Assembly: GCF_009729055.1 (NCBI RefSeq)
Contig: NZ_CP045484.1
Coordinates: 558,001 to 622,000 of the forward strand
Direction: 5' to 3'
From: Sulfurisphaera ohwakuensis
Lineage (GTDB): Archaea > Thermoproteota > Thermoprotei_A > Sulfolobales > Sulfolobaceae
Length of the DNA: 64,000 nucleotides
The translations under genes and the position numbers were made by a program. Shown piece after piece: positions 20,476 through 53,514 of this stretch (positions are counted from its first letter, which is position 1; the number at the start of each line of letters is the position of its first letter). Under the pieces are notes generated by a model. That model searched no databases and was not told where the DNA came from. It saw only the letters and a program-made list of their open reading frames with translations.

Positions 20476-22464
20476 TTAACTTTTACTTATCTCAGCCTTA
20501 AACTCTTCATAAGCCTTCTTAACTTCTTCTACTGAAGCCTCATCTTCAAGCGTTGTTATATCACCTACTGGCTGATTAGTAATAACAGCTTTAACTACTC
20601 TCCTCATGATCTTACCACTTCTGGTCTTTGGAAGTTTAGATACAAAGTAAATACTGGATAATGTAGCAATAGGACCAACTTTATCTCTAACAGTCTTCAA
20701 TATATCCTCCATAAGAGTTTTATTTGGTGAAACACCTTGCTTAAGAATAACAAATGCTACCGGTACTTCACCTTTTACCGGGTCTGGAACTCCTACAACT
20801 GCAGCTTCAGCAACAGCAGGATGTTCAATAATTGCGGACTCTAGTTCATATGTTCCTAATCTGTGTCCGGCTACTTTAATTACCTCATCAGCCCTGCCTA
20901 ATATCCAGAAGTATCCATCAGAGTCTTTAACTGCATAATCTCCAGCATAGAACATTCCTGGGAATTTAGACCAATATACTTTAATATACCTTTCTGGATC
21001 CCTATGTATTGTCAACGGCATTCCAGGCCATGGATTCTTTATTACTAGATACCCTCTTTCCTCTGGTTTTGTAGGATTACCATTATCATCAACAACATCC
21101 GCCTCTATTCCAGGTAAAGGCATTCCGTTAGTCCCAGGTTTCAAAGGAATTAAATAAAGACCGGGTAAGTGACTAATCATAATACCACCAGTCTCAGTCA
21201 TCCACCAAGTACTACCAAACGGTACTTCTCCTCTACCAATTAACTTCCATAACCACTCAAAAGCTTCTGGATTTATTGGCTCTCCGACCGAGTGCATAAT
21301 TCTGATAGTGTCTGTCTTATGTGCTTTAACCCATTCATCTCCATATTTCATGAAAGATCTTATTGCTGTTGGCGAAGTATAGAAGACAGAAACACCGTAT
21401 CTTTCAATTATCGAAACCCACCTGTCTGGTTTAGGATAGTCTAAAGCTCCCTCATACATTATTTCGGTAACTCCTTCCATTAATGGTCCAAAGACAATAT
21501 AAGAATGCCCTGTAACCCATCCTATGTCTGCGGTGCACCAGTAAATATCATCATCTTTAACATCAAATACCCATCTCATTGTTGCATGAAGTAATGTAAG
21601 ATATCCTCCAGTATCATGCACAATTCCTTTTGGTTTACCAGTAGTTCCAGAAGTGTAGAGGATATATAATGGTTCTTCACTCTTTATCCTTTCTGGCTCA
21701 ACATAAACACCTTGAGGAACTTCCTTTAATACATCATCTAGATATTTATCTCTTCCCTCGACCATGTTTACCTTTTGTCCCGTTCTTCTAACAACTATAA
21801 CGTCTTTCACCGTAGAAACTTTTTCTAAAGCTTTATCAGCAATATCTTTTAATGGTACTATCTTACCTCTTCTCCAGCCTCCGTCAGCAGTAATTAACAT
21901 TTTAGCTTGTGCATCGTCTATTCTCGTAGCCAGCGCATCAGCACTAAATCCGGAAAATACTACAGTAAACACAACTCCAATTCTAGCCAATGCTAACATA
22001 AATATCGGCAATTCTGGGATCATTGGTAAGTAAATAGCTACAGAATCTCCTTTCTTTAAACCGTACTTATTTCTAAGTAAATAAGCTACTCTATTAACCT
22101 CTGTATATAAATCGTAATATGTTAACTTTCTCACTTCTTTAGGGTTCCCATTTTCATCTACTGGTTCTCCTTCCCAAATTATTGCTACCTTATTTTTTCT
22201 CCAACTCTTTGCATGTCTATCCACAGCTAAATAGGAAGCATTTATTTCACCACCAACAAACCACTTATAAAATGGTGGATTAGAATCATCAAGTACCTTT
22301 TCCCAAGGCTTAAACCACTCTAATTCTGATGCAACAGAAGCCCAGAATCCCTTATAGTCTCTTACAGTCATGCTATGTATTTCCTTATATGTATTTATAT
22401 CTACTACTTTATTTGACTTAGGTACAATTTTAGTATTAAATGGTAATGCCCAACTTACTGACAT
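20476..22464 (-). CDS. acs: Acetyl-CoA synthetase (AMP-forming)
   Basis: This 662-residue ANL-superfamily ligase activates acetate through acetyl-AMP to acetyl-CoA. It shows the P-loop-like YTSGTTGKPKGIVH, the STWWMTETGG core with both tryptophans (the second closes the acyl pocket around acetate), the hinge YFWILGRADEVIKVAGHRLG, and the catalytic lysine of LPKTRSGKIMRR. A 3-hydroxypropionyl-CoA synthetase is an alternative in Sulfolobales carbon fixation, but the small-pocket Trp and the divergent acetate carrier favour acetate. It shares the 94-bp gap at 22465-22558 with that carrier. Confidence 0.85.
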   Translation of the reverse strand: MSVSWALPFNTKIVPKSNKVVDINTYKEIHSMTVRDYKGFWASVASELEWFKPWEKVLDDSNPPFYKWFVGGEINASYLAVDRHAKSWRKNKVAIIWEGEPVDENGNPKEVRKLTYYDLYTEVNRVAYLLRNKYGLKKGDSVAIYLPMIPELPIFMLALARIGVVFTVVFSGFSADALATRIDDAQAKMLITADGGWRRGKIVPLKDIADKALEKVSTVKDVIVVRRTGQKVNMVEGRDKYLDDVLKEVPQGVYVEPERIKSEEPLYILYTSGTTGKPKGIVHDTGGYLTLLHATMRWVFDVKDDDIYWCTADIGWVTGHSYIVFGPLMEGVTEIMYEGALDYPKPDRWVSIIERYGVSVFYTSPTAIRSFMKYGDEWVKAHKTDTIRIMHSVGEPINPEAFEWLWKLIGRGEVPFGSTWWMTETGGIMISHLPGLYLIPLKPGTNGMPLPGIEADVVDDNGNPTKPEERGYLVIKNPWPGMPLTIHRDPERYIKVYWSKFPGMFYAGDYAVKDSDGYFWILGRADEVIKVAGHRLGTYELESAIIEHPAVAEAAVVGVPDPVKGEVPVAFVILKQGVSPNKTLMEDILKTVRDKVGPIATLSSIYFVSKLPKTRSGKIMRRVVKAVITNQPVGDITTLEDEASVEEVKKAYEEFKAEISKS

Positions 22465-39622: not shown

Positions 39623-39655
39623 ATCTCTCTTAATGCTAATTATGGATGTAATTTC

Positions 39656-39783
39656 ATAGTGTCATTATTATAATATTTATATTTCCATATTTAAATCAAG
39701 ATATACAAAGCCTTATCTTGGCATATACTCTTTACAGAGATTTTCATTACTTAATAAGTTTATACCTTAATGACGACACTATA
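39656..39783. mobile_element. Candidate MITE or solo end of the IS1-like element
   Basis: The right border (about 39759-39782) matches the right TIR of the IS1-like element at 24 of 25 bases (TTTATACC, then TAATGACGACACTAT). The left border reads ATAGTGTCATTA, a weaker match to the inverted TIR. The 128 bp between have no coding capacity. It is either a miniature element mobilised by IS1-type transposase or a deletion remnant. Confidence 0.45.
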
Positions 39784-40036: not shown

Positions 40037-41629
40037 TTATCTTTTCATTAATAATCTAGAAGGTATACTATTAGGGCTAACGTGGACTCTCAGAACTGTT
40101 GGACTCTTAAGAGATAATCCCACAGCTTCTTCTACGCTTTTCTTAAGATCTTCCTTTTCCTTTACCTCAATTACGTTGACCCCAATTCCCTCCATAACCT
40201 TAGTGTAATCAATTTGAAATACATCAGTTGCAAAAGTATTCCCATATCTTATTTTCTGATTTAATCTCAGAAAGTGCTGTACACCATCCTCTACTAATAC
40301 CGTTAAGAAGTTGACCTTATATTGTACTGCAGTAATTAATTCGTTTAAACAACCTTGAAATCCTAAATCTCCTATAATACTTACTATTTGCCTTTCTGGA
40401 GATGCAATTTTAGCTCCTATTCCAGCAGGAATCGCTGATCCCATTGCGTTAAAGATAAGAGAATTAAAGTAAGAATTAGGCCTATACACTTTTATATCCA
40501 TTGCCATAACCTGATTAGTCCCTGCGTCAGTAATTATAACTCTATCTTCGCTTAATGTCTCATCTAGAACTTTAGCTAAATAATCATGGGTTATCTCGCT
40601 ATTACTTTCTTTGTAGTTTTTCTCACTTACTTTATAACTCCATTTTGGCAAATTAACCCTTTCAACTATTTCTTCTAGAAATGTCTCAGCACTAGCTTTT
40701 ACAGTAACTTCCGCACTAAAGGAAGTATTAAATACATTGATGTCTGGGTCTACATGAAGTATTCTTCTTGGCATTTTAATACTCCATTTATTAGTTTCAA
40801 GATCGTTGAAAGACGTCCCTATTGCTATGAGACAATCTCCGGGGATTTCAGTGAGGTTAAATATTGTTCCGGCATATAAAGGATGATTCTCTGGAATACT
40901 TCCTTTTCCTCTGATAGTAGTGAATACTGGAATTCCTAATCTCTCAATGTAGTTTATGATGTTTGATCTAGATGCACCATAACCTAACAATAGAATTGGT
41001 TTTGAACATTCACTTAGGAAATTTACTGCTTCCCTTATTTCCTCTTTTGTAGGGTAAACTAATGTCCTATTGATCTTCTTGTTAGTCTTATACTCTTCAA
41101 TATTACTCTTCTCCTCCAGTAGATCAACGGGAACTTCTATGTAAACTGGTCCCATCTTGTCCTCTAGAGCTATTCTAAAAGCCTTTTCCATTATAATTGG
41201 AACGTCTTCTGGGGAGTAAATTCTAAAAGTGGCCTTAGTTGCTTGTCGGGCCATTTCTAATTGCAAATCATAATACCCAGAATCATGAAGTTGCTTCCTA
41301 TGCCTATATTTAAATTCCTTATTTAGAGATATTAATACAAGAGGCGAACCTTCAGAATAGGCCTCAACTAGACCAGTCAAAGAATTAGTAAAGCCCGGAC
41401 CATTAACTGACAGGAAAATTCCAACATTTCCCTTTAATCTAGCGTAATAATCTGCCATTATGGCTCCTCCATATTCTAATCTAGGCATGTAATATTTTAT
41501 CTCCCCCTTACTTACTCTCTTTCTGAGTTCCTCATATAATAATAAACCGTGGGTGCCTGGTATTCCGAATACATCTGTTACTTGGGAAGAAATTGTGTCA
41601 ATTAGAAGCTCGGCTGTTGTTTTACCCAT
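40037..41629 (-). CDS. TPP-dependent enzyme, acetolactate synthase-like
   Basis: A 530-residue member of the three-domain TPP enzyme family (acetolactate synthase, benzoylformate and phenylpyruvate decarboxylase). The N-terminal PYR domain has RLEYGGAIMADYYARLKG with the TPP-activating Glu. The middle domain has PVYIEVPVDLL. The C-terminal PP domain has GDLGFQGCLNELITAVQYKV. In that domain the usual paired Asn of the metal motif is replaced by ED (VLVEDGVQHF), and GDG reads GDL. Real acetolactate synthase activity is therefore doubtful; a decarboxylase or carboligase of unknown substrate is likely. Confidence 0.75.
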   Translation of the reverse strand: MGKTTAELLIDTISSQVTDVFGIPGTHGLLLYEELRKRVSKGEIKYYMPRLEYGGAIMADYYARLKGNVGIFLSVNGPGFTNSLTGLVEAYSEGSPLVLISLNKEFKYRHRKQLHDSGYYDLQLEMARQATKATFRIYSPEDVPIIMEKAFRIALEDKMGPVYIEVPVDLLEEKSNIEEYKTNKKINRTLVYPTKEEIREAVNFLSECSKPILLLGYGASRSNIINYIERLGIPVFTTIRGKGSIPENHPLYAGTIFNLTEIPGDCLIAIGTSFNDLETNKWSIKMPRRILHVDPDINVFNTSFSAEVTVKASAETFLEEIVERVNLPKWSYKVSEKNYKESNSEITHDYLAKVLDETLSEDRVIITDAGTNQVMAMDIKVYRPNSYFNSLIFNAMGSAIPAGIGAKIASPERQIVSIIGDLGFQGCLNELITAVQYKVNFLTVLVEDGVQHFLRLNQKIRYGNTFATDVFQIDYTKVMEGIGVNVIEVKEKEDLKKSVEEAVGLSLKSPTVLRVHVSPNSIPSRLLMKR

Positions 41630-42228
41630 ATATTACTATTATTATTCTCATAAATTAATCTGTTGTTTTAAGAATCCAAGTGAGTCATATTTTTGCTAGT
41701 TCGTTTGTCTTATTAGAGTGAGATTTTAACTATTAAATATGTATTAAGTAATATTAACATATGGAAGTGTGTAAAAGCATATGATAATAACGTTATAATT
41801 TAGATTACCCAGAATAGTTTAGCATAAATGTATTATTTGTTTACTGAATTATATTGATTTAGCAGAGAATATTACAATCTGCAATAGAGCCGTGAATCGT
41901 CCAAGACACGTAAACAATCCTAGAATATCTCTCCTCATGGGAATTTTCTTTACCATATTATTATCTCATCAATTTCTATTCTAATAACCTTAAATAAAGT
42001 CTTGATATAAGGGCTGCCCTCATTGTAGAATATTTGCATAAACAATTGCAAATTATAAAAAGAATTTAGTATTATGTTCTCCTTATAGTTTTAGTAAAGT
42101 TTTACACATAAGAATATTAATTGTTAAAAGCAAATTCACTAATATATTTAGCTAAGAAGATGCGTTTAGAATTTATAAGTCTTATACAGTATATACAGTT
42201 ATAAGATAGTTAATAGCAAACTATATTA
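41630..42228. other. Intergenic with a dispersed-repeat copy
   Basis: About 600 bp without a gene. It contains a dispersed repeat at 41833-41898, and the promoter of the synthetase gene at its right end. An AGTTAATAGCAAACT inverted repeat lies just before the ATG at 42229. Confidence 0.4.
41833..41898 (+). repeat. Dispersed repeat, copy 3
   Basis: The left half matches 2251-2280 (27 of 30) and the right half matches the reversed copy near 223-240. This copy therefore links the two halves of the family. Confidence 0.5.
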
Positions 42229-44112
42229 ATGAAGGATATAAGCCTAGAGGAATACCGCCAAATCTGGGAAAGGAGTATTAAAAACCCAGAAGAATTTTGG
42301 AATGAGATAGCTAAGGAGCTTATCTGGTTTAATCCTTACACTAAAGTTCTTAGTTATAAATCACCAGATAATTATAGATGGTTCGTTGGAGGTAAAATAA
42401 ACATTGCCTATAACGCTTTAGATAGATGGGTTAAGCAAGGTATGGGAGAAAAGACTGCTATAATCTGGTTAAATGAGGAAGGGAAGGAGAAGAAATATAC
42501 GTACTTAGATTTATATGAATTGACAGCTAAAATTGCAAAATTCATTAGAGAACATGCCTCAAAAGGTGATACAGTTTTAATTTATATGCCTATGGTAGTT
42601 GAGGCTGGTGCTACAATGTTAGCCTCTGCAAGGGCCGGAACAATTCATACTGTAGTGTTTTCTGGATTTGGTGTTAAAGCTTTAGCAGATAGGATTAGAA
42701 GTGCCAAACCTAAGATAATTTTTACTGCTGACGTCACTTTCAGAAGAGGAAAAACAATAGAACTAAAGTCAATCGTTGATGAGGCTATTAAAGAAAGTCA
42801 AGTGAATGTGAAAAAAGTAGTTGTTCTAAATAGGGAAGGTAAGTGTGATTTTAAGGAGGAAAGAGATGTAGATTTTAATGAAATATTAAAGTTATCTCCT
42901 TTTATTGAGGTCGAGAAAACTAATTCAGAAGATCCCTTATTTATACTTTATACTTCTGGGACTACTGGGAAACCTAAAGGAATAGTCCACGCTATGGGAT
43001 CTTATACTGTTTGGGATTACGCTCACGTAAAGTGGCTTTATGATTTTTCTAGGAATAGAAAATTATTAACTACTGCAGACCTTGGTTGGATTAACGGACA
43101 CTCTTACAGTTTATATGGTGTTTTATTAAATTATGGGACCGCAATATGGATTGAAGGTGTTTTGGATTATCCTCATCCAGGTGTAATGTGGGAGATAATA
43201 GAAAAATATCATGTGGAATATGTGTGGACAGCTCCTACATTGATTAAAGTGTTAATGAAATATGGTGAACAATACATAAATAAATATGACACAAGTAGCC
43301 TAGAAATATTTGTTACAGCTGGTGAGAGTTTAGGATTAGAAGCATTAAACTGGTTAAGGAGAAACGTAAAGGCTAAGAAGATATTTGAGGTCTGGGGCCA
43401 GACTGAAAACTCTGGATATATTGCTTCACCTGGAGGATCTTATTATGGCTTTCTAAAGATAAAAGACGGTAGTGTGGGTTTGCCCTTGCCATCAATTGAA
43501 ATTAAAGTTGTCGATGATAATGGAAATGAAGTACCTATAGGAAGGCCTGGAAATATCATAATCACTACACCATCTCCAGCTTTTATGATTGGGTTGTGGA
43601 ATGATGAGAGGTATAAAAACTATTATGCTAAGTTTGGTTATTACGAGACTGGGGACTTTGGTTATTTAGATGAAGAGGGCTATTTGTATATCCTTGGAAG
43701 GAGTGATGATATTATAAAAGTAGCTGGGCATAGGATAGGAGTTGCTGAAGTCGAAAACGCTGCTTCTATTTCAGAAGTTGCTGAGGTTGCGGCTGTAGGC
43801 GTTCATGATCCAATAAGGGGTGAAGTAATAATAATATTTGCAGTTCCTAAAGAAGGTGCTAAAGACCTAGATTACGTTAAGCAAAAGATAGTTGAGAGTG
43901 TAAGAAAGAATTTCGGTGCTATTGCCATAATTAAGGATGTAATTTTCGTTAACAAATTACCTCATACTAGAACTGGGAAAATAATGAGAAGAGTGTTAAG
44001 AGCTTTAGCAAGTGGTAATGAGGTAGGTGATATCTCTACTCTTGAAGACGAAACTAGCATAGAAGAAGCTAAGAAAGCTTTATCAGAAATTAAAGTAATC
44101 GATAAAAGTTAA
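42229..44112 (+). CDS. Acyl-CoA synthetase (AMP-forming), enlarged acyl pocket
   Basis: A 627-residue relative of acetyl-CoA synthetase. It keeps YTSGTTGKPKGIVHAMGSYT, GYLYILGRSDDIIKVAGHRIG and the catalytic lysine of LPHTRTGKIMRR. The core motif reads EVWGQTENSG where acetyl-CoA synthetases have a second Trp (WWQTETG). That Trp closes the pocket around acetate, so Gly implies a longer acyl substrate such as propionate, 3-hydroxypropionate, butyrate or 4-hydroxybutyrate. It is a single gene with its own promoter. Confidence 0.82.
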   Translation: MKDISLEEYRQIWERSIKNPEEFWNEIAKELIWFNPYTKVLSYKSPDNYRWFVGGKINIAYNALDRWVKQGMGEKTAIIWLNEEGKEKKYTYLDLYELTAKIAKFIREHASKGDTVLIYMPMVVEAGATMLASARAGTIHTVVFSGFGVKALADRIRSAKPKIIFTADVTFRRGKTIELKSIVDEAIKESQVNVKKVVVLNREGKCDFKEERDVDFNEILKLSPFIEVEKTNSEDPLFILYTSGTTGKPKGIVHAMGSYTVWDYAHVKWLYDFSRNRKLLTTADLGWINGHSYSLYGVLLNYGTAIWIEGVLDYPHPGVMWEIIEKYHVEYVWTAPTLIKVLMKYGEQYINKYDTSSLEIFVTAGESLGLEALNWLRRNVKAKKIFEVWGQTENSGYIASPGGSYYGFLKIKDGSVGLPLPSIEIKVVDDNGNEVPIGRPGNIIITTPSPAFMIGLWNDERYKNYYAKFGYYETGDFGYLDEEGYLYILGRSDDIIKVAGHRIGVAEVENAASISEVAEVAAVGVHDPIRGEVIIIFAVPKEGAKDLDYVKQKIVESVRKNFGAIAIIKDVIFVNKLPHTRTGKIMRRVLRALASGNEVGDISTLEDETSIEEAKKALSEIKVIDKS

Positions 44113-44273
44113 TTAGAAGCTTAGAGTTGGATGAATTTCCTATATATAGTTTCATAGAAATCTTTCAATATGCATTTGCGCATTTACAAAGAAATATATT
44201 TATTTTATTCTATTATTAAATTACATAATTTCTGAATAAGGAATATGTCTTTTTTATCATATAAAATCTTTGG

Positions 44274-44723
44274 CTAGGTTAATGTTATACATCCTGTATC
44301 TCTTAACTTTCCTTTCCTTACTAATTCATAAGCTACTCTACTTAATCTATCAGCCTCTTCATTTTCTTCTCTAGGTACCCAGATTAGGGTAGCATTTAGT
44401 TTCTTCTTTAATTGGATCGCTTTTTCGTAAAGTGGGATTATTCTCTTAGCCTTAATCTTGTACTCACCATTCATTTGTTTTATTACGAGTTGCGAATCTC
44501 CCTTAATTATTGGGGAAGAAATTCCAAGTTTTAACATTGTTTCCATTAAACATATTAATCCAGAATATTCGGCTACGTTATTTGTTGAGTTAATACTGAA
44601 AGGTTTCTCAGCTAAACCATAACCTTCAATTTTTCTATTATCTAAATAGATTACAAAGCCGAAAGTGGCTATTCCTCCAGGGTTTTTAGGTTCGCATAAA
44701 CCATCAAAATAACCGATTATCAT
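44274..44723 (-). CDS. rnhA: Type 1 ribonuclease HI, archaeal
   Basis: A 149-residue RNase HI that removes RNA from RNA-DNA hybrids. Catalytic acids are D7 (GYFDG), E52 (AEYSG), D76 (KGDSQL) and the C-terminal Asp of [11 protein letters not shown]58 and C145 are placed as in the S. tokodaii enzyme, where they form a stabilising disulfide. It lacks the basic protrusion of the E. coli enzyme. It starts at ATG 44723 and stands alone. Confidence 0.92.
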
Positions 44724-44874
44724 AGAGTAGTAATGTTAATGGTTAAAAATTAGTTTATCTTAAAGCTTATATTCTTTCAGAATATATGTCGTAAAAAATT
44801 AATCTATCGTGGAAAAGGGGTTTTCTTTCTAAGTGATAAATGTCTTTATTCATCATAATATTATCTTACCGTTT
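44724..44874. other. Intergenic upstream of RNase HI
   Basis: A short A+T-rich region with the RNase HI promoter. It borders the structured element at 44875. Confidence 0.35.
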
Positions 44875-45039
44875 GTCCCTACACTTTCATTTCACTCATT
44901 TTATCTTCAATGAGAGAGTGTAGGGACTTAGTCCTCAACCACTGTGGGTCATGGGACTCCTTTGAGCCCAACGGCACGGGACTCACATCTCCGTTATCTC
45001 CCTCACCCTTTTGGGCATAGCCCACATCGGTGTGAGAGA
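44875..45039. ncRNA. G+C-rich structured element: ncRNA candidate or transposon end
   Basis: A stretch of about 165 bp is visibly richer in G+C than its surroundings and has no long frame. It contains a perfect 11-bp stem GTCCCTACACT (44875-44885) with AGTGTAGGGAC (44917-44927), around an inner CTCATT/AATGAG stem. A second structure, TCTCCCTCACC (44997-45007) with GGTGTGAGAGA (45029-45039), encloses GGGCATAGCCC. Stable RNAs stand out like this in A+T-rich thermophiles, but the hairpin ends of IS200/IS605 elements look similar. The strand is undetermined. Confidence 0.5.
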
Positions 45040-45347
45040 TCATCTTTATCGGAAAAATTTTAACATTATCAAATATAAAAAGATTTTTATTAACGTGAAA
45101 AAGGATTCAGCCCAATTTCTTATTAGTACTATCCTACAATTTCCATTCTTAACAAATTGGATAACGTCTCGTTCTAATCCTAATAAAAATTAAAGCGGTC
45201 TCTAAGGCGTAAATCACGTTTCCGTAAATTTATGAAGAACTTTTCTTTGTTCCAGTAAGTGTGGCGTCGGTTTTGTCAAAGTTAGCGTAGATCTCCCTAT
45301 GAAATTGAGGGACTTCTTCACTTATATTACCCTTTATACAATATGAG
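45040..45347. other. Intergenic, nothing firm
   Basis: About 300 bp without a supported gene. A 60-codon frame at 45011-45193 crosses the structured element and looks accidental. CTAAGGCGTAAATC at 45201 recalls a segment at 31752. Confidence 0.35.
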
Positions 45348-46535
45348 CTAGCAAAATCCTACTGGAACATTAAATTTACGCGATAACTGTTCACATGCAA
45401 GATTTTCTATAAACTTCTCTATAAATAATATTTTAGTTCCGTAATCTCTTATACGTTTTAAAATATACTCTATTAACTTATCATCTTTGCCAATATTGAG
45501 ATACGTTGCACTTAGCCCAGGTGCCAAGAGAACTATAAATTCGCTTTCGATTATCTTTTTCTCTTCGAGCTCCTGTAATATTGAAAACACAACTTCAGGT
45601 TTGTCAACACTAATTAGGATATTATGCACTAGGTCCAATTTGAAATCAAACTCATCCTCCCAATCTACAGTTCTGTATAGATCAAGAGTTTTGTTTAAAT
45701 ACTTATCATCTTTAGTTAAAACATATGCTAGGAGTGATGCTAACACCATAGTGTCTCTAGCTTTTTCACGTATCTCTCTAATACCTCTTTTCCTCGTCCC
45801 TTTAAGGGTGACTGGAGCGAAGGTTAGACTTCTGAAGAGTTGTTCTAAATTATCCTTCTCATTAAACGTTGCGTAATATCTAGTTAAGGCATACATCTTC
45901 ATTAGTATCATTTCGTCTGTAAGTCCTTTGTTTTTCATTAATCTTTTAACGTAATCCTTATACCTTTCATACCCAATACTCCTCAGTGCTATCGCTATAA
46001 CGGCAGTATCCATAAAGAGTTCTGTTTCATCCCCAACTTCTGCCAACATCTTTATAGCTTCTTCTATGAGCTCCTTTCTAGCGGGGGTTTTCTCGTCTCT
46101 TAAAGCAATATTCCTTAAAAAATAGGAATAAGTCTCCTCATCCGGATTTAACTTAAGGAAATCATCTACCGGGTTATAGTCATTTACTAAATGTGCACAA
46201 GTTATTAAAACATAAAAGTTCAGTAAAGGACTGAACTTTGGCTTATTACCTAATAAACACTCAGTTAAAGTAGCCGTATTTACTAGGTCACTATCATCTA
46301 GTTTATTCTCATACTTTTTAATAATATTAAATGCCGTGCCCCTATCACCAGCTATTGCGTATGTTTCGGCTGATTTTAATACATGTATTTTTCTATACGG
46401 ATTTCTTAACAGCTCTTCATGAAAATATTGATTAAACTAATCTAAAGTAGACTCTTTAGATGCTATTTTATAGATAAAGTAATAGAGCTCAATTTTTTCT
46501 TCTATGATATAAAGATAGGGGTTTAATCAGATCAT
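45348..46535 (-). pseudogene. Helical-repeat protein gene, interrupted by TAG and lacking a start
   Basis: The frame open at 45348-46049 (233 residues, all helical, TPR-like, for example REKARDTMVLASLLAYVLTK) continues upstream without any ATG, GTG or TTG for another 130 codons (IHVLKSAETYAIAGDRGTAF). It then meets a single TAG near 46437 and continues again (IIEEKIELYYFIYKIASKES). It appears to be one long gene of about 390 codons with an in-frame stop and a lost start. A translation start at 46049 for the C-terminal part is possible. Confidence 0.55.
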
Positions 46536-52284: not shown

Positions 52285-53514
52285 CTACGTCATCATTCTG
52301 ATATTCCTAGTCCTAACAAATAAAATTGCATAAACAATTACATAAATAATCCCTATATATCTTAAAATGCTTAGTTCTCCTATTACTGTCCCTATATCTG
52401 AAACTACAATTACAGCTACTGAATATACTATTGAAAATATGAATTCCATGATCGGTATTATAATCCTTATCTTCTCTTTTTCAATAGCAGTTATTAAGAA
52501 CGAGTTTAGATATATAAATGAAGAGTTTTCTAACACCAGTATTGTAAATACCCCTATCATAAACACTGGAAATAGATAGACTATATATGACAGGAGCACA
52601 ATCACTAGGGCTATTGTTATCCTGTAAACTAACACATAGTTACCAAGAGTTCTTACTCTGATAATATTAGAAACGTAAGTTGCAAAAATCATTGTTATAG
52701 AGAAAAAGAGTAGATATAGGGAGTAGCTGACATTGAACATGTCCGTAATTCCTAGTAAATAGAAAATTACTGGGTAAAGTGCTGCAATGATAGGATAAAG
52801 TAGATAGTCACTTATAAAGATAAGTTTCACGGTGTTACTTGTCTTTTTTAAAGATTTGAACTGTGTAATAAATGATATCGTAAGAGGAGTCTTTTCAGCT
52901 GCGGGATAATCTAACTTTAACTTAAGGAGAAGGGTAAGAAGTATGAATATTAGCAGTATCCCAAATCCTGCGTCAAAAACTCTCAGCCCATATCTTTCTT
53001 CTAATAGAATTACCAATACAACTATTATAGCTTGATTTATCTGACGGAGAGAAGCCAGAATACCTTCTAGTTTTCTTAGCACATCAAAATCTAGGTTAAC
53101 ACTTTTAATCAGATATAAGTTAACAGGTTCCCTAAATATGAATAATGATATAAAAAGCCCTTGAAGTATTCCTAGAAATACAGCAGAGTTAACATAGGTT
53201 GAGACTAAGAAGGTGATCCAGGCTAAAGTGATAAACTGTACTAAAATTATGCTGAGATCGTACTTTTTCAGACTTTTTATAGAGTTATTTATTGCAGATG
53301 AAAAAGGCAATAGAAAAGAAGGAACACCACTTATTGAGGTAACAACAATTATACCGAGGTCTATTAAGTTCCTAGTTAAAAAATAAATGTAACCTACTAA
53401 TAAATAGTAAAGTACAAAGTTAACTGGTATTAATTGAGTAATAAAAAGAATCTTTAGCGTCTTGTTACTATTTAAAACTTTAAGAGTCTTAATAATATCT
53501 TTGAGTCTTTCCAT
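52285..53514 (-). CDS. MFS-like polytopic membrane protein
   Basis: A 409-residue protein with about 12 hydrophobic segments, arranged as two halves joined by a charged loop (KLDYPAAEKTPLTISFITQF). The overall plan fits a divergent major facilitator, but the usual loop motifs are weak. The N-terminus MERLKDIIKTLKVLNSNKTL is cytoplasmic. It follows the frame at 53526-53905 by 11 bp and may form an operon with it. The substrate is unknown. Confidence 0.65.
   Translation of the reverse strand: MERLKDIIKTLKVLNSNKTLKILFITQLIPVNFVLYYLLVGYIYFLTRNLIDLGIIVVTSISGVPSFLLPFSSAINNSIKSLKKYDLSIILVQFITLAWITFLVSTYVNSAVFLGILQGLFISLFIFREPVNLYLIKSVNLDFDVLRKLEGILASLRQINQAIIVVLVILLEERYGLRVFDAGFGILLIFILLTLLLKLKLDYPAAEKTPLTISFITQFKSLKKTSNTVKLIFISDYLLYPIIAALYPVIFYLLGITDMFNVSYSLYLLFFSITMIFATYVSNIIRVRTLGNYVLVYRITIALVIVLLSYIVYLFPVFMIGVFTILVLENSSFIYLNSFLITAIEKEKIRIIIPIMEFIFSIVYSVAVIVVSDIGTVIGELSILRYIGIIYVIVYAILFVRTRNIRMMT

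Follow-up and report, generated by a model that had tools for sequence, protein, structure and literature searches.

In Sulfurisphaera ohwakuensis, a gene for a predicted AMP-forming acyl-CoA ligase belongs to a clade related to acetyl-CoA synthetase (ACS) whose acyl pocket has been remodelled at several positions together, and in relatives of this organism the gene is linked to, and co-occurs with, the genes of a two-subunit protein, C2/C3, that resembles glutaconate CoA-transferase. The gene lies in a stretch of 64,000 nucleotides, referred to as the window, that spans positions 558,001 to 622,000 of contig NZ_CP045484.1 in a genome of 2.80 Mb consisting of a single contig. On balance, we consider it probable that this enzyme, with its rebuilt pocket, is an AMP-forming ligase for a short acid other than acetate, and that in the clade the resulting thioester is passed to C2/C3. 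By its best-scoring family models the ligase would pass as an acetate--CoA ligase, and the organism would be credited with acetate or carbon-fixation chemistry.

Ligase sequence and predicted activity

The open reading frame at 42229-44112 is intact, lies on the + strand, begins with ATG and encodes a protein of 627 aa with the Pfam domains ACAS_N, AMP-binding and AMP-binding_C, which is the domain set of ACS. Alignment with E. coli Acs places the kept residues at R191, D500, R515, R526 and R584, together with the Lys of PHTRTGKIMRR, and the catalytic Lys, the ribose-binding Asp and the CoA-binding Arg positions general to AMP-forming synthetases are all present. From these kept residues the protein is predicted to be an active AMP-forming enzyme. 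Relative to the copy in genome G114, pN is 0.12 and pS is 0.80, and the combination of few amino-acid changes with saturated silent sites indicates that the gene is under selection.

Two ordinary ACS-type paralogues are encoded in the same genome, one in the window at 20476-22464 on the - strand, which scores above both acetate-CoA ligase cut-offs, and one at genome positions 2001426-2003330. They are 78% identical to each other and both carry TYVW at the four pocket positions considered below.

Covariation in the acyl pocket

In alignments, Gly390 of the ligase core motif EVWGQTENSG (residues 387-396; codons 43387..43416, + strand) replaces the acyl-pocket Trp: it falls at the second Trp of the motif in ACS proteins of solved structure, and at W414 of E. 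coli Acs. The first-pass annotation had read this Trp-to-Gly change in the pocket wall directly from the sequence, together with the retention of Trp in the enzyme at 20476, and the alignments bear out both observations, the latter enzyme reading STWWMTETGG. Residues N289, W333, A364 and G390 of the ligase correspond to T311N, Y355W, V386A and W414G in Acs numbering, which is used from here on. In a study of fungal Acs structures the acyl pocket is described as a Trp wall, a WIT motif and a Val (PMC8383264); position 355 is assigned to the pocket from the covariation seen here.

The four positions were compared across 113 ACS-like ORFs (loci L001-L125) that score at least 390 bits against the window ligase, its own copy counted, and that were not picked by motif. 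T-Y-V-W was found in 95, N-W-A-G in 13, V-G-N-W in four and V-F-A plus a gap in one. The gapped row aside, T311N, Y355W, V386A and W414G are strictly joint (13 ORFs), and neither N311 nor G414 occurs without the rest of the set among the 113 ORFs at or above 390 bits. This threshold leaves out the distant paralogues of the genome (L005 to L011, L013 and L014), one of which, L006 at genome position 2100387 (343 bits), has T-F-A-G, that is, Gly414 with T311, F355 and A386, and another of which, L005 at genome position 1832960, has W355 together with Trp414. The T-F-A-G paralogue implies that Gly414 alone fixes no substrate. A wider signature, I310-N311-W355-A386-G414-N418-S419, is common to all 25 aligned clade members and as a whole is found in none of 10 comparison proteins, a pattern not due to chance; since the members were selected by the string WGQTEN, G414 and N418 are given by construction, while N311, W355 and A386 are independent of the selection. 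The clade offers a natural test of ACS pocket re-engineering, with four positions that switch jointly.

That Gly at the pocket-Trp site admits longer acids in characterised enzymes, as the first-pass annotation had stated, agrees with two papers (PMC8383264, PMC10455477): the Trp416Gly form of M. thermautotrophicus ACS accepts branched acids and chains of up to seven carbons (PMC8383264), and medium-chain synthetases have Gly at the ACS pocket-Trp site, accompanied in MacsMa by a substitute Trp in a similar position (PMC10455477). The proposal of a wider acid range thus holds as far as the residue change and the hint it gives, and it falls short in that three more pocket changes, including the new Trp355, accompany the Gly. 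An explanation of the pocket by the single Trp was likewise judged incomplete, because the three further positions covary among the 113 ORFs. A pocket larger than that of ACS is likely, rather than certain, because MacsMa has a substitute Trp and the ligase clade gains Trp355. This Trp355 may refill the space of Trp414, and acetate is therefore still possible as a substrate.

We regard it as quite unlikely that the ligase mainly activates acetate or propionate, with Trp355 replacing the lost wall. This reading draws on the family models, of which the top-scoring are those of acetate and propionate CoA ligases, with PRK00174 narrowly missed (651.5 bits against a cut-off of 657), on A386, which the ligase has in common with E. 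coli PrpE, and on the capacity of a substitute Trp to fill the Trp414 space, as reported for MacsMa (PMC10455477). It is opposed by the clear miss of TIGR02188 (638.6 bits against 724.95) and by the two TYVW-type ACS that the genome already encodes, at 20476 in the window and at genome position 2001426. Scores against the PrpE models also lie below their cut-offs (TIGR02316, 495.8 against 827.4 bits; PRK10524, 541.5 against 955 bits).

Distinction from carbon-fixation enzymes

The first-pass annotation had included intermediates of the 3-hydroxypropionate/4-hydroxybutyrate (3HP/4HB) cycle among the possible substrates, and the Gly at the Trp414 site could indeed admit a C3-C4 hydroxy acid. Such a role is not supported by the comparison of genomes, and we consider it very improbable. 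Just outside the window, at genome positions 633242-635140, lies a separate Trp-keeping gene with the motif HQWWQTETG, which is a candidate gene for 3HP-CoA synthetase (3HPCS) by its resemblance to the M. sedula protein. This gene has V-G-N-W at the four pocket positions, a contrasting pocket solution in which Trp is retained, and it falls outside the ligase clade; the ligase in turn belongs to a different clade from the 3HPCS-type gene and is without HQWWQTETG. The 3HPCS-type motif is present in 27 of 31 genomes of the family, against which two of three congeners have no ligase and the third has a split copy. The recurring neighbours of the ligase in fetched regions are C2/C3 or a thiolase, and at 19 of 25 ligase loci a gene of the CoA-transferase-like or thiolase type is close by.

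Two observations speak for a part in the cycle. The PDB matches of three paralogues (over partial ranges of 383, 388 and 349 aa) pointed to none of them as the 4HB-CoA ligase of the window genome, and about 15 kb separates the 3HPCS-type gene from the ligase in the two g2 genomes. The ligase itself scores 161.8 bits against 8biq, the 4HB-CoA ligase used for comparison, and 486.1 bits against the best ACS. According to PMC7078158, Msed_1456 and Msed_0406 are the 3HP-CoA and 4HB-CoA synthetases of M. sedula.

Distribution and insertion site

In a tree of 50 rows, a branch with 100/99 support separates the 25 ligase-clade members from the other rows. At the family level the clade spans five groups within the phylum, f1, f8, f22, f25 and f37 (these labels and f6 denote families, and g1 to g7 genera). 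A DNA pattern for WGQTENSG matched 20 of 398 phylum genomes, with no match of the reversed-pattern control in the genomes listed. In the order, an intact ligase was identified in at least 13 of 197 genomes, where 13 is the identified number because the motif was checked in fetched loci (30, plus seven more). No Gly motif was found in the ACS matches among the relatives listed (80 of 145) in a six-peptide scan of 84,980 genomes, which is uninformative outside the phylum because it also missed members of the order itself.

Among four genomes compared from the window's genus, only the window genome has an intact ligase. No ligase was found in congeners G078 and G119, and congener G136 has a copy, 59% identical, that is split between two reading frames (L138:8762-10616). 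In the window the ligase is held in a segment of 2534 bp (41740..44273) between a ThDP-dependent, acetolactate-synthase-like enzyme (40037..41629, - strand) and a ribonuclease HI with a Thermoproteota-type match (44274..44723, - strand); in G078 the same flanking genes are separated by 94 bp, measured from one aligned block to the next, and in G119 they are 927 bp apart with no match to the ligase between them. A 2-oxoacid pathway through the divergently encoded TPP enzyme at 40037-41629 was considered and rejected, since its gene adjoins RNase HI without the ligase in both G078 and G119, and the linkage is taken as incidental.

Several repeats and unassigned genes were noted in this part of the window. 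A repeat of ~245 bp at 44869-45113 has seven more copies in the genome at 93-99% identity, with weaker copies in congeners, and looks like a MITE-type element. Short dispersed repeats at 39655-39782 and 41691-41898, the latter bordering the inserted ligase segment, likewise recur in other parts of the genome and in congeners. For the ORFs at 52285-53514 (409 aa) and 45348-46049 (233 aa), searches of Pfam and NCBIfam at E 0.001 gave no match.

Sequence comparison favours a lateral gain of the ligase from a g7-like lineage, because the ligase is as close to that of G114 (80.3% identity) as the G090 ligase is (79.0% between G114 and G090), and C2 and C3 are less so: for C2, the window genome and G114 share 76.9% identity and G114 and G090 87.3%, and for C3 the values are 65.1% and 78.8%. 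A recent transfer was rejected on the saturation of silent sites relative to G114, from which it follows that either the gain is old or, as the alternative, the congeners lost the gene.

Linkage to C2/C3 and to a thiolase

The C2 and C3 gene families are each present in 13 regions of the set formed by 31 fetched regions and the window, and at 14 of 25 ligase loci C2 or C3 lies in the fetched region. At 12 of these 14 loci C2 starts from 68 bp before to 27 bp after the ligase stop; at L166 it is 1.6 kb from the ligase, and at L169 only C3 adjoins the ligase. At five of the remaining 11 loci a gene of the thiolase family (cluster C5) lies no more than about 6 kb away, and for L167 and L170-L172 C2 is found in the same genome away from the ligase locus; the last two are the broken copy of G136 and the window's own locus. 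The gene maps rest on an ORF caller that retains the longest of overlapping frames, and in L258 a C2 missed in this way was located by a separate search.

The C2/C3 pair of the window genome does not adjoin the ligase, which counts against the explanation we prefer. It lies ~55 kb away, at genome positions 656953-657711 and 657743-658465 (L179:16953-18465), in a block with the gene order DsbA-like, CBS, 200-aa, C2, C3 and then a 105-aa gene. The same block recurs across several genomes of the family, whether or not they have the ligase; two g2 genomes carry the ligase within this gene order, as judged from sequence starts and clusters.

Co-occurrence extends the pattern beyond the immediate neighbourhood. 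C2 is present in all 13 genomes of the order with an identified ligase and in 34 of 184 others, and in the phylum sample in 15 of 20 ligase genomes and 26 of 378 others; these counts overstate significance because related genomes are not independent. The ligase genomes without C2 are G247, G342, G351, G387 and G451, an absence that is uncertain because three of the five are under 92% complete, and the same five have a C5 thiolase gene near the ligase.

C2/C3 is also common without the ligase, as the 34 of 184 genomes in the order indicate. Another ACS-like ligase was near in one of seven C2/C3 regions examined that have no clade ligase, and none was found within six genes of C2/C3 in L253, L254, L256, L257, L259 and L260. 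The exception is G054 (f6; L255:5508-7466), in which a Trp-keeping ACS-like ligase with V311, W355, A386 and the motif HMWQTET, placed by the tree on a long branch outside the ligase clade, is one gene away from C2/C3; this suggests a second pairing of an ACS-like ligase with a C2/C3-type enzyme.

These neighbours bear on the possibility that the ligase is a broad short- to medium-chain synthetase (C3-C8, branched), similar to MacsMa or to the W416G enzyme, that serves scavenging and has no dedicated partner. Medium-chain synthetases typically carry Gly at the Trp414 site, and Gly there broadens the acid range of ACS (PMC8383264, PMC10455477); in the window the ligase stands alone, with neighbours acquired only through insertion. 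Such an enzyme nevertheless seems unlikely, given that the linkage to C2/C3 or nearness to a thiolase in relatives, and equally the invariant pocket signature of the clade, suggest one defined substrate.

Predicted chemistry of C2/C3

PF01144, the class I CoA transferase domain, is present in both subunits (five proteins of three loci), and the nearest PDB entries are 1poi (GctAB), 5mzw and 6co6, the last two of which we take to be AibAB and IpdAB. In C3, the beta subunit, Val (residue 49 in the window genome) is aligned to the catalytic Glu54 of GctB, so that the transferase Glu is absent from the aligned site. Across 59 rows, duplicates counted, this site reads V-x-E in 56 and ESF in one (f6, L250), with no residue in two, and a conserved Glu two positions further along C3, residue 51 in the window genome, could still be the nucleophile. 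In C2, the alpha subunit, 64 of 64 rows representing 43 distinct aligned sequences have Cys, residue 101 in the window genome, where 6co6 has Glu and 6coj has Ala; the site presumably corresponds to the catalytic Glu105 of IpdA. PMC5380842 reports Gly at the GctB Glu54 site in the beta subunit of IpdAB and describes that enzyme as a ring-opening hydrolase that showed no transferase activity towards the substrates tried. Because C2/C3 is without the transferase Glu at the aligned site, it more likely hydrolyses, decarboxylates or cleaves a thioester than transfers CoA.

A more specific proposal, which we consider unlikely, is that the acid activated by the ligase is a 3-oxo or dicarboxylic one and that C2/C3, with its invariant Cys and without the usual transferase Glu, cleaves a C-C bond of the CoA ester or decarboxylates it by a mechanism new to the superfamily, with the thiolase as a substitute in other lineages. 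If this were true, ligase and C2/C3 would form a module of two steps, so far undescribed, in this phylum of archaea.

Proposed role

Under the preferred explanation, that of a ligase for a non-acetate short acid, the enzyme would make a short acyl-CoA other than acetyl-CoA, from an acid that has about 3 to 6 carbons and is probably branched or functionalised. In the clade the thioester would be handed to the two-subunit C2/C3, for which one of the non-transfer reactions named above would be expected, and in the window genome the ligase would act from its own site and co-operate with the C2/C3 pair 55 kb away. The recurring partner would define a possible small pathway. A limited literature search on the pairing of ligase and CoA-transferase, and on glutaconate CoA-transferase in Sulfolobus/Sulfolobaceae, found no paper, and within that search the ligase clade with its recurring partner represents an undescribed ACS subfamily.

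Comparison with known systems

Acs (PDB 8rpk, 1pg3/2p2b) resembles the ligase in its three domains and in the kept catalytic and CoA-binding positions, and ACS-type ORFs are about 36-47% identical to it. The ligase differs from ACS by T311N, Y355W, V386A, W414G, T418N and G419S, so that in place of Trp414 with Thr311/Val386 its pocket has N311, A386 and G414, and it falls below the cut-offs of both curated ACS models, TIGR02188 and PRK00174. E. coli PrpE has the same Ala at Acs V386 and, unlike the ligase, keeps Trp414 with V311/F355. The 3-hydroxypropionyl-CoA synthetase of the Msed_1456 type is also an ACS-family enzyme encoded in the same genome, and it too differs from the ligase in keeping the Trp (V-G-N-W). 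MacsMa (3etc) shares the Gly for the ACS pocket Trp (PMC10455477) but is distant from the ligase in sequence, scoring 183 bits where the best ACS reaches 486. C2 and C3, with PF01144 in both, align over most of their length with the GctAB- and AibAB-type entries 1poi and 5mzw; they are set apart from GctAB by the Val that C3 has for GctB Glu54, and from the IpdAB-type entry 6co6 by the Cys that C2 has where that protein has Glu.
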